Of a stretch of 25,483 nucleotides of DNA, positions 21,102 through 23,642 are shown piece after piece (within the stretch, counting starts at the first letter, position 1; each line of letters begins with the position of its first letter). The notes beneath the pieces were generated by a model. It saw nothing but the letters and a program-made list of their open reading frames with translations. It was not told the DNA's origin and searched no databases. The DNA comes from a virus. A program made the position numbers and the translations under genes. Location of the stretch: the IMG/VR virus record IMGVR_UViG_3300021959_000347, positions 1-25,483 of that record, one strand, 5' to 3'.

Positions 21102-21734
21102 CTATGCGTTGATGATGTTGCTGACGCTAGCGGCGTACCATTTGCCACCAAGCGCCGTTGGAATGCCAGCATCGTTTAGCTTTCCAGCGATAGCCCGGAG
21201 TGACGCACCAGCGTCACGCAGGGCAGAGATGATAGGCATAGCCTGCTTGGCTACAGCCTGTTGTTTTTCGCGCCGAGCGGCACCTGATGCCAGACCACCA
21301 GCGCGTGGGTTAGGACAGCCGAGCTTGATGCCCCGCGCCTTGGCGGCGGCAAGGGCGTCTTTGGTGCGCTTGCTGATCTCTTCGCGCTCATGCTGTGCGA
21401 CAACGGCGCGAACACCGAACTCTAACGTGCCAGCGTTGGGCATGTCGGCGGCGACGATATCAACGCCAGCCTTGCGCAGTGCCAGCAAAAAGGCGGCGTC
21501 GCGTGACAGGCGATCGATTTTTGCAATCAGGATAGATGCGCCAGTATCGCGGCACATAGCCAATGCGGCATCAAGTTGTGGCCGGGCATCAACCTTGCCT
21601 GACTCAACCTCAGTGAAGCTGTGCAGTATGTTGTCAGCGTATGGCTGAACCAGCGCCTGCTGGGCTTCAAGGCCAAGACCTGACTGGCCTTGGCGCTTGG
21701 TTGATACACGATAGTAAGCAATGTACTGGGTCAT
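21102..21734 (-). CDS. Serine recombinase (resolvase/invertase family)
   Basis: A 210-aa site-specific recombinase. The N-terminal catalytic domain starts YIAYYRVSTKRQGQSGLGLE with nucleophile Ser11. SGKVDARPQLDAALA and ILIAKIDRLSRDAAFLLAL carry the conserved Arg/Asp region. A linker helix with QHEREEISKRTKDALAAAKA and a C-terminal helix-turn-helix (AGASLRAIAGKLNDAGIPTA) bind DNA. The size fits resolvases and invertases, not large serine integrases. It could resolve multimers, invert a segment or integrate the phage. I saw no matching inverted crossover sites nearby. A GGGAG site precedes the ATG. Confidence 0.88.
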   Translation of the reverse strand: MTQYIAYYRVSTKRQGQSGLGLEAQQALVQPYADNILHSFTEVESGKVDARPQLDAALAMCRDTGASILIAKIDRLSRDAAFLLALRKAGVDIVAADMPNAGTLEFGVRAVVAQHEREEISKRTKDALAAAKARGIKLGCPNPRAGGLASGAARREKQQAVAKQAMPIISALRDAGASLRAIAGKLNDAGIPTALGGKWYAASVSNIINA

Positions 21735-22125: not shown

Positions 22126-22326
22126 ATGGCCACCACAAAACAGGTACATTTACGTTTAAGATCAAACGTTTACGACATGCTAAAGTTTGCAGTAAATAAT
22201 TCTGCACACCGCAGTATGTCAGCGTACATCGACGAAATCCTAGAGCAAGAGTTAACGCGGCGCGTTAATAGTCACAGTGATAGAGCCGCAGAGACTATGC
22301 GGTCGCTGGTTAATCGCGATGGGTAA
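22126..22326 (+). CDS. Ribbon-helix-helix (Arc/CopG-like) regulator
   Basis: A 66-aa protein from the ATG at 22126, chosen over an upstream ATG at 22057 because the latter would put the promoter and operator inside the gene. TTKQVHLRLRSNVYDMLKFA supplies the DNA-contacting strand and helix 1, and HRSMSAYIDEILEQEL the second helix, the usual two-helix layout. The C-terminus is a short charged helix. It probably binds as a dimer of dimers to the adjacent palindrome and controls both operons. GGA at 22113-22115 is the likely ribosome site. Confidence 0.7.
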   Translation: MATTKQVHLRLRSNVYDMLKFAVNNSAHRSMSAYIDEILEQELTRRVNSHSDRAAETMRSLVNRDG

Positions 22327-22753
22327 GATCAACAGCAGGTCTAAAGGTGTGCGCGGTGAGATGGAAATAAGAGACATTTACCAGCAAAACCTTGGCCTGA
22401 CATTTAAGCGCGACATAGAACAGTACCGCGCTGGAGACCACGGCGATCTGATCTGCACAGATATGGATTTTCCCTTTGTAACCGAGGTCAAACTGTACGC
22501 GGCTGGATATGGTGCGCGTCCTGACTGGTGGGATCAGGTGTGCAAGGCGGCACAGTCGGCAGGCAAACTGCCGCTACTGGCCTACAGGTTTGACAGGCAA
22601 CAATGGCGCTGGCGCTTTCCGCTTGAAGCAATCGCCAGTCTGCGTGACTACATACCAGCGCCCGGCGACGTGCGATACGACTGGCGCTACGCATCAGAGT
22701 GCGACACAGACACAGCTATGATGATTATCAGGGAAATAATAAGTGATGATTAA
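22319..22753 (+). CDS. Holliday-junction-resolvase-like PD-(D/E)XK nuclease
   Basis: A 144-aa protein from the ATG at 22319 (GTG at 22277 is an alternative), overlapping the regulator gene by 8 nt. GKINSRSKGVRGEMEIRDIY carries the N-terminal basic patch and catalytic Glu. GDHGDLIC gives the Asp and VTEVKLY the E-x-K core, in the spacing of Hjc-type resolvases. A C-terminal half with Trp/Arg-rich strands follows (FDRQQWRWRFPLEAI). Likely job: cutting branched DNA produced in phage recombination or replication, before packaging. It could also be another nuclease of the same fold. Confidence 0.75.
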   Translation: MGKINSRSKGVRGEMEIRDIYQQNLGLTFKRDIEQYRAGDHGDLICTDMDFPFVTEVKLYAAGYGARPDWWDQVCKAAQSAGKLPLLAYRFDRQQWRWRFPLEAIASLRDYIPAPGDVRYDWRYASECDTDTAMMIIREIISDD

Positions 22754-23642
22754 AATGCTCGATCTGTTTAGCGGTATTGGCGGCTTTAGTTACGCTGGAG
22801 AAAAGCTGGTTGGTGGCTTTGAGACAGTCGCGTTTTGCGAGTATGATAAACACGCGCAAAAAGTCTTGCGAAAGCATTGGCCTGACACTGAGATAATTGA
22901 TGACGTAAGGGAACTAGCAAATGACGCAGAAAGATTCAGAGGATCAGTTGACATTATTTGCGGCGGCTATCCTTGCCAGCCCTTCTCGCTTGCCGGGGTC
23001 AGACGAGGCGATAAAGATGACCGACACCTCTGGCCAGAAATGCTTAGAATTATCCAAGCTGTCAGGCCGACTTGGGTCATTGGAGAAAACGTTGCTGGCC
23101 ACATCTCTATGGGCCTCGACGAGGTGCTATCTTCGATGGAAGCCGCAGGCTACCAAGCAAGGTGCTACGTTATTCCGGCTGTCGCCGCAGACGCCCGCCA
23201 CCGCAGAGACAGATGCTGGATTATTGCACACGCCGACCGCGAAGGCGAACCAGCTAGCGCCGTCGATGAACAGCGGTTGGCACGAGCCTATGTGGGCGAC
23301 GCCCAACACGATGGATCATTTGCCAGCGGGGATATCGGGCGCGTACAAAGAAAGCCTGACAGGCAGACGCAAAAGATCGAGCAATCTGAGGGATCAGGTG
23401 ATGCAGGAACCAGCAATGCACCCAACACCGCAAGCACACGATGCGAAAGTGGGCAAAAATGGTCGAGGCTTGGGAGCGAAATATCAAGATGGCAATGGTG
23501 GGAACCTGAACCCGCAGTGGGTCGAGTGGCTAATGGGGTACCCGGTCGGGTACACCGAATTAGACAATTAGGGAACAGCATCGTGCCACAAGTGGCGGCG
23601 CGTATATTGTATGCGATAAAGGAAGCACATGAGCAGGCCTAA
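22746..23642 (+). CDS. DNA cytosine-5 methyltransferase
   Basis: A 298-aa C5-MTase from the ATG at 22746 (GTG 22743 possible). Motif I LDLFSGIGGF binds AdoMet. Motif IV is GGYPCQPFS with the catalytic Cys near residue 77, motif VI ENVAG, motif VIII RRDRCWIIA, and motif X RQLGNSIVPQ. The target-recognition part (residues about 170-265) is short and low in complexity. It methylates cytosine in a short sequence I cannot predict, probably to shield phage DNA from host restriction. It overlaps the genes on both sides. Codons about 59-275 also encode a second long ORF in the +1 frame. Confidence 0.93.
   Translation: MIKMLDLFSGIGGFSYAGEKLVGGFETVAFCEYDKHAQKVLRKHWPDTEIIDDVRELANDAERFRGSVDIICGGYPCQPFSLAGVRRGDKDDRHLWPEMLRIIQAVRPTWVIGENVAGHISMGLDEVLSSMEAAGYQARCYVIPAVAADARHRRDRCWIIAHADREGEPASAVDEQRLARAYVGDAQHDGSFASGDIGRVQRKPDRQTQKIEQSEGSGDAGTSNAPNTASTRCESGQKWSRLGSEISRWQWWEPEPAVGRVANGVPGRVHRIRQLGNSIVPQVAARILYAIKEAHEQA
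22921..23571 (+). CDS. Overprinted ORF inside the methyltransferase gene
   Basis: A 216-codon ORF lying wholly within the methyltransferase gene, shifted +1. AAGGGA (22907-22912) stands 8 nt before its ATG, ideal spacing. The protein reads like a known phage protein type, recalled from memory: LPGSDEAIKMTDTSGQKC, LGSLEKTLLATSLWAS, repeated TP motifs (LLHTPTAK, WATPNTMDH, MHPTPQAHD), and the end LNPQWVEWLMGYPVGYTEL. Similar proteins, I believe, occur near phage cytosine methyltransferases. Function unknown. Conservation might be real dual coding or a passive shadow of the conserved enzyme frame. Confidence 0.5.
   Translation: MTQKDSEDQLTLFAAAILASPSRLPGSDEAIKMTDTSGQKCLELSKLSGRLGSLEKTLLATSLWASTRCYLRWKPQATKQGATLFRLSPQTPATAETDAGLLHTPTAKANQLAPSMNSGWHEPMWATPNTMDHLPAGISGAYKESLTGRRKRSSNLRDQVMQEPAMHPTPQAHDAKVGKNGRGLGAKYQDGNGGNLNPQWVEWLMGYPVGYTELDN

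Follow-up and report, generated by a model that had tools for sequence, protein, structure and literature searches.

Long overlaps between genes on the same strand, with both proteins conserved over large distances, are rare. For the DNA methyltransferase M.EcoHK31I, Lee, Kam and Shaw (1995) are reported to have described a small chain encoded in an alternative frame within the gene of the large chain. The present analysis concerns a nested gene pair in a 25,483-base virus record (IMG/VR record IMGVR_UViG_3300021959_000347), hereafter the window, to which the coordinates refer. In this pair a C5-cytosine methyltransferase gene, here called alpha, contains on the same strand a second open reading frame (ORF), beta. 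The comparative evidence makes dual coding of this locus as good as established, and beta is very probably the target-recognition/motif IX subunit of a two-chain C5-cytosine methyltransferase in which alpha is the catalytic chain. The features of the pair are as follows.

22746-23642, + strand: alpha, predicted C5-cytosine methyltransferase catalytic subunit of about 298 amino acids; the start is GTG 22743 or ATG 22746
22761-22787, + strand: alpha motif I, DLFSGIGGF
22907-22912, + strand: putative Shine-Dalgarno sequence AAGGGA of beta, inside the alpha codons GTA AGG GAA and 8 nucleotides 5' of the beta ATG
22921-23571, + strand: beta, overprinted protein of 216 amino acids with an ATG start, in the +1 frame relative to alpha and entirely nested in it
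22962-22988, + strand: alpha motif IV with the catalytic Cys, GGYPCQPFS
23199-23213, + strand: alpha motif VIII, HRRDR
23292-23573, + strand: alpha residues 182-275, a low-complexity stretch, predicted to be disordered, at the position of the target-recognition domain of monomeric enzymes
23506-23562, + strand: beta motif IX, LNPQWVEWLMGYPVGYTEL, aligned to M.HhaI LHPRECARVMGYPDSY via a composite profile
23565-23591, + strand: alpha motif X, QLGNSIVPQ, beginning within the last beta codons

M.EcoHK31I consists of two polypeptides, the larger one containing motifs I-VIII and X together with the predicted target-recognition domain and the smaller one containing motif IX, whereas the small chain of M.AquI holds both motifs IX and X (PMC3404938). 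Compared by description, the window pair shows the same division as M.EcoHK31I, alongside which M.EaeI is also named: motifs I-VIII and X in the large chain and IX in the small one. As is reported for M.EcoHK31I, the small-chain gene is nested in another frame of the large-chain gene, 22921-23571 lying within 22746-23642. The two systems may differ in the location of target recognition: the predicted target-recognition domain of M.EcoHK31I belongs to the larger chain, whereas the window alpha has a poorly conserved stretch, predicted to be disordered, at this place and the conserved TP repeats are found in beta. Moreover, the window gene is phage-borne and no cognate restriction enzyme was identified adjoining it, two predicted PDDEXK nucleases flanking the pair. 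With M.AquI the pair shares the presence of two chains and a split in the variable region, but in the window motif X is kept in alpha and the genes are nested, so that the AquI-type small chain carrying both IX and X is absent. Because the broad arrangement has a precedent in M.EcoHK31I, the locus is less novel than hoped; what is new relative to that precedent is the breadth of occurrence and the probable presence of the recognition region in beta.

Dual coding of the methyltransferase locus

The preliminary description, made from the window sequence, had pointed to a stop-free +1 ORF of 216 codons (22921-23571) over the methyltransferase gene, preceded by AAGGGA 8 nucleotides 5' of its ATG, containing recurring TP motifs and ending in LNPQWVEWLMGYPVGYTELDN, and all these features were found as described. 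Reshuffling of synonymous codons of the window methyltransferase produced a mean of 5.9 stops in the +1 overlap and left the frame open in none of 400 shuffles, the actual number of stops being 0.

A tblastn search with beta returned 72 phage records, and related stretches were collected from IMG/VR (353, by pattern scans) and from bacterial genomes (305, by pattern and profile). In nearly all of the fetched loci, which were selected through beta, beta was uninterrupted and alpha was open across it in the same register. Because these loci had been picked via beta, alpha-anchored loci from the window and two further clades were gathered too. Among 133 full-length distinct alpha genes, the beta profile was matched completely in 119 and partially in 13, with 1 giving no match. 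A pattern count in 128 distinct alpha-anchored viral genes revealed a motif-IX-like string in the +1 frame of 113 and in frame 0 or +2 of none; the other 15 all possessed a long +1 ORF with a diverged form of motif IX recognisable by eye at or near its end. The motif was likewise located in +1 in 64 bacterial or prophage genes selected through beta (56 by pattern, 8 by eye).

Stop counts bounded by the stop of beta itself are partly circular and were not used, counts bounded by methyltransferase motifs being relied on. Within such strict boundaries, 31 of the 31 window-anchored genes were open in +1, with 0 stops in this frame compared with 338 in +2 over 6,408 codons. Stops in +1 were present in 19 bacterial loci and, in those checked, resulted from beta ending further upstream of motif X. 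The dual coding proposed in the preliminary description was borne out by the alpha-anchored relatives examined, in which the +1 frame was open and carried the same end motif.

Across an alignment of 24 relatives, the divergence of the first, second and third alpha codon positions changed from 0.032, 0.019 and 0.291 before the overlap to 0.129, 0.080 and 0.185 inside it. Such a shift fits dual coding, because the wobble base of alpha is the second base of a beta codon and the wobble base of beta is the first base of an alpha codon. The selection test (OLGenie-style) covered roughly the first 100 beta residues, upstream of the variable region. It gave a beta dNN/dNS of 0.478 (0.328-0.691) for the window clade and 0.468 (0.340-0.629) for a second clade of 21 sequences, compared with 1.03 and 0.82 in the non-overlapping control, both intervals spanning 1. 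The dSN/dSS values in the overlap were 0.42 and 0.44; the second-clade control was similarly low (0.53, from very few SS sites), and for this reason dNN/dNS was relied on. Both frames are under purifying selection. Thus purifying selection in +1 and suppressed synonymous change, the two codon-level signs by which the preliminary description had suggested judging the overlap, were both seen.

The Shine-Dalgarno sequence and the ATG of beta are conserved among relatives. The Arg codon bearing the former is AGG in 23 of 24 related genes, compared with 116 of 702 Arg codons overall in those genes (binomial 2e-17, the sequences being non-independent). In the second, distant clade Lys (AAG) stands in place of this Arg, and the Shine-Dalgarno sequence is typically AAAGGAG.

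Distribution of methyltransferase motifs between alpha and beta

Alpha matched PF00145 at 4.6e-41, with the alignment reaching only model position 182 of 324, as well as phrog_363 at 8.6e-79 and TIGR00675 with 110.9 bits. It contains motifs I, IV (PCQ), VI (ENV), VIII and X, whose core residues vary hardly or not at all among 36 alpha sequences, and by these family matches and motifs it is a C5-cytosine DNA methyltransferase. It is not of the monomeric type, in which a single chain holds motifs I-VIII, motif IX and the target-recognition domain. Motifs IV-X had been assigned to this frame in the preliminary description; the assignment stood for IV, VI, VIII and X, with motif I in addition, and failed for IX, which sits in the +1 frame. 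The alpha alignment has almost no conserved columns from motif VIII to the W.EPxVGRVA stretch. In the structure prediction the predicted local distance difference test score (pLDDT) was mostly above 90 in the catalytic domain and about 90 or above in the motif X helix, and fell below 50 throughout residues 182-275. The closest PDB structure to the predicted catalytic domain was M.HhaI, with M.HaeIII also among the neighbours.

Beta is composed of a conserved N-terminal region, a variable TP-repeat region and the C-terminal motif IX. It belongs to PHROG 1008, matching phrog_1008 at 1.1e-28 (residues 5-178 of 216 in the best stretch), and the label of this family is 'DNA methyltransferase', yet the beta frame is without a catalytic motif. 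Comparison of beta with Pfam and NCBIfam gave zero matches. A Csf1-like identity was also considered and rejected, as the PDB sequence-profile matches were weak (E ~0.02) and judged to be due to chance. The near-invariant end of beta, L-N-P-x-x-V-E-x-L-M-G-x-P-x-G-x-T, resembles motif IX, the invariant residues being L196, N197, P198, V201, E202, L204, M205, G206, P208 and T212.

The alpha profile aligned to M.HhaI over motifs I-VIII only, alpha motif X scoring -0.7 bits. PF00145, used to detect motif IX in the beta chains of the bacterial locus L210 and the actinophage Firecracker, gave no match to them, and hence a composite profile was used, consisting of alpha motifs I-VIII, the end of beta and alpha motif X. 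In this profile LNPQWVEWLMGYPVGYT aligned to M.HhaI LHPRECARVMGYPDSYK with motif X directly after it, in a collinear arrangement and at the position expected (10.5 bits).

In the proposed enzyme, translation of the outer frame would yield alpha, providing cofactor binding, the catalytic Cys and motif X, and an internal ribosome-binding site within the alpha codons would yield beta in the +1 frame. Beta is the probable site of the recognition region, its variable TP-repeat region being the likely candidate, and would dock on alpha, completing the small domain held in one chain by monomeric M.HhaI. Either chain by itself would not be expected to show specificity or activity. Internal initiation, complex formation, the setting of the target site by beta and methylation are steps that we infer.

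Several observations weigh against this proposal. AlphaFold modelled beta alone poorly (pLDDT 53), although this is expected of an obligate partner. The motif IX alignment is short, and its 10.5 bits correspond to an independent E of ~3 when taken alone. The hhalign match of beta to the actinophage module described below is limited to the TP and IX region, and for the first ~85 beta residues no relative was identified beyond the family. These residues may have an additional role.

A second type of beta N-terminus (LPKWGMTRNG.. or WPRSGIMQNG..), resembling the actinophage type, precedes the same TP and motif IX end in four loci (L265, L275, L220 and L224). In three others (L021, L022 and L097), beta residues 121-216 match again elsewhere in the same ORF, which suggests a duplication of the TP module within the overlap.

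Relatives of the beta module and alternative explanations

The module formed by the TP repeats and the EWMMGxPxGW motif also follows motif VIII in actinophage methylases. Mycobacteriophage Daenerys has the TP-repeat region and the motif EWMMGWPAGW in one chain with the enzyme (gp70). In Arthrobacter phage PhluffyCoco the module is a separate, non-overlapping gene (gp43) located after a short methyltransferase gene (gp42), and Firecracker gp6 and gp5 are two genes overlapping by ~200 nucleotides. The beta profile matched the C-terminal half of the actinophage enzymes with a probability of 95.8 and E of 7.5e-9 (hhalign). Unlike in the window, the actinophage forms consist of one chain or of two genes with partial or no overlap, and their motif X follows IX in the same frame. 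In L210 (2778-3311 and 2971-4077) alpha terminates shortly past motif VIII, and a single frame, that of beta, holds IX and X, the module thus being divided in an AquI-like manner. A small chain with both IX and X is found in L210 and Firecracker; together with PhluffyCoco, they resemble the AquI division more than the window does. Taken together with the window, these forms present the module in fused, adjacent, partly overlapping and nested arrangements. The stand-alone homologues that the preliminary description had proposed to search for were therefore found, either non-overlapping (PhluffyCoco gp43) or fused in frame (Daenerys gp70). In two other loci (L207 and L216) further frame switches were noticed near the 3' end, which are either real or assembly errors.

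The preliminary description had cautioned that a constrained enzyme frame can cast a conserved shadow, in which case the +1 ORF would be untranslated. A second frame can indeed be kept partly open by conservation of the protein in the first, and some of the N-terminal +1 codons do coincide with the conserved motifs IV-VIII. However, about 6 stops are expected from the synonymous shuffles, none of which left the frame open, and in two clades the +1 frame is itself under selection. Nor is this frame interrupted in the hypervariable region, in which alpha is barely conserved. Homologues of the +1 protein also exist outside the overlap. The shuffles, the dual-frame selection and the non-overlapping homologues answer the caution and rule out a shadow, the chance of which is negligible. 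If both frames are translated, the +1 frame could instead be entered by a ribosomal frameshift from alpha, giving one fused chain with motifs I-VIII, the target region and IX. Some +1 products do hold both IX and X (L210), and since a single-chain form exists in actinophages (Daenerys), a shift would rebuild the monomer there. In the window, on the other hand, the +1 frame ends before motif X, which a single shift would lose. The Shine-Dalgarno sequence and start (22907-22923) are conserved, and purifying selection acts on the first 100 beta residues, which would be bypassed by a late shift. A frameshift in place of an internal beta start is accordingly very improbable.

A slightly less remote alternative, still improbable, is that beta is a real protein acting outside the enzyme as a separate partner, such as a regulator, an anti-restriction or a host-interaction factor. 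The N-terminal ~85 residues without a relative of known function and the nil Pfam and NCBIfam matches would agree with such a role. Nevertheless, at every locus examined beta ends in the motif IX that alpha is without, single-chain relatives have the TP/IX module in the target-recognition position, and beta without alpha was not found among the loci examined, even Xanthomonas phage FoX4 having an unannotated alpha. The preliminary description had regarded a methyltransferase paired with a partner as a notable system; the pair is there, and the partner is most likely the target-recognition/IX half of the same enzyme instead of a separate factor.

Occurrence, annotation and neighbouring genes

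The nested pair recurs in hundreds of phage and prophage loci, the hosts or genomes including Firmicutes, Proteobacteria, Bacteroidota, Acidobacteria and others. Its usual annotation is that of one gene; database entries show a single methyltransferase, a methyltransferase next to a 'hypothetical protein', or the inner frame alone. The last case is represented by FoX4 (L225, 1945-2838 and 2132-2854), in which beta alone is annotated, as 'DNA methyltransferase', and an alpha with the expected motifs lies unannotated over it. Both frames are annotated in the Paenibacillus larvae phages Bloom (BLOOM_56/57) and Lily (LILY_62/63), LILY_63 carrying the remark 'g62 internal gene'. The function labels of their inner frames are merely 'DNA cytosine methyltransferase' or 'hypothetical protein', and related records show one frame only. 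A description of this phage nested methyltransferase family was not found in a literature search.

By a narrow margin we favour a wider interpretation, according to which such pairs would form an extensive class of phage and prophage methyltransferases in several bacterial phyla, for the most part unrecognised, with the specificity subunit overprinted on the catalytic one. New specificities would arise in it through exchange or expansion of TP modules open in two frames, the two chains always travelling together. Because databases misrepresent the pair, errors would follow in methylome predictions and wherever the outer gene is cloned with recoded codons. The class would also supply a natural split-methyltransferase family of engineering use and would offer a clean system for studying the evolution of two frames, one of them hypervariable.

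A search for M.EcoHK31I itself in E. coli genomes turned up no more than a prophage copy in which alpha is interrupted by a stop. The Klebsiella aerogenes plasmid LR134256, considered as a candidate for the EaeI system, contained a prophage-like region and no obvious EaeI system. The prophage of E. coli PCP07014 (L220, 2367-3128) has a nested pair in which alpha, with an internal stop, is flagged as a pseudogene, with an uninterrupted +1 frame around the motif IX end. Five nested-pair matches of the same score (L167, L168, L170, L171 and L172) were located in one chromosome of a Roseovarius metagenome-assembled genome (OX638333.1) and are probably related prophages or repeated elements. In Gordonia phage Bibwit (L232, 163-1872) the annotated methylase gene consists of two joined pieces and encloses an HNH endonuclease gene, perhaps a hidden homing element of the kind described in PMC11855218.

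The two PDDEXK nucleases predicted on either side of the window pair are different from each other (22319-22753, PF24608; 23629-24066, PF24579), and each overlaps an end of alpha by a few bases. A serine recombinase of the DNA invertase family is encoded at 21102-21734 on the minus strand (phrog_125, 6.8e-29).
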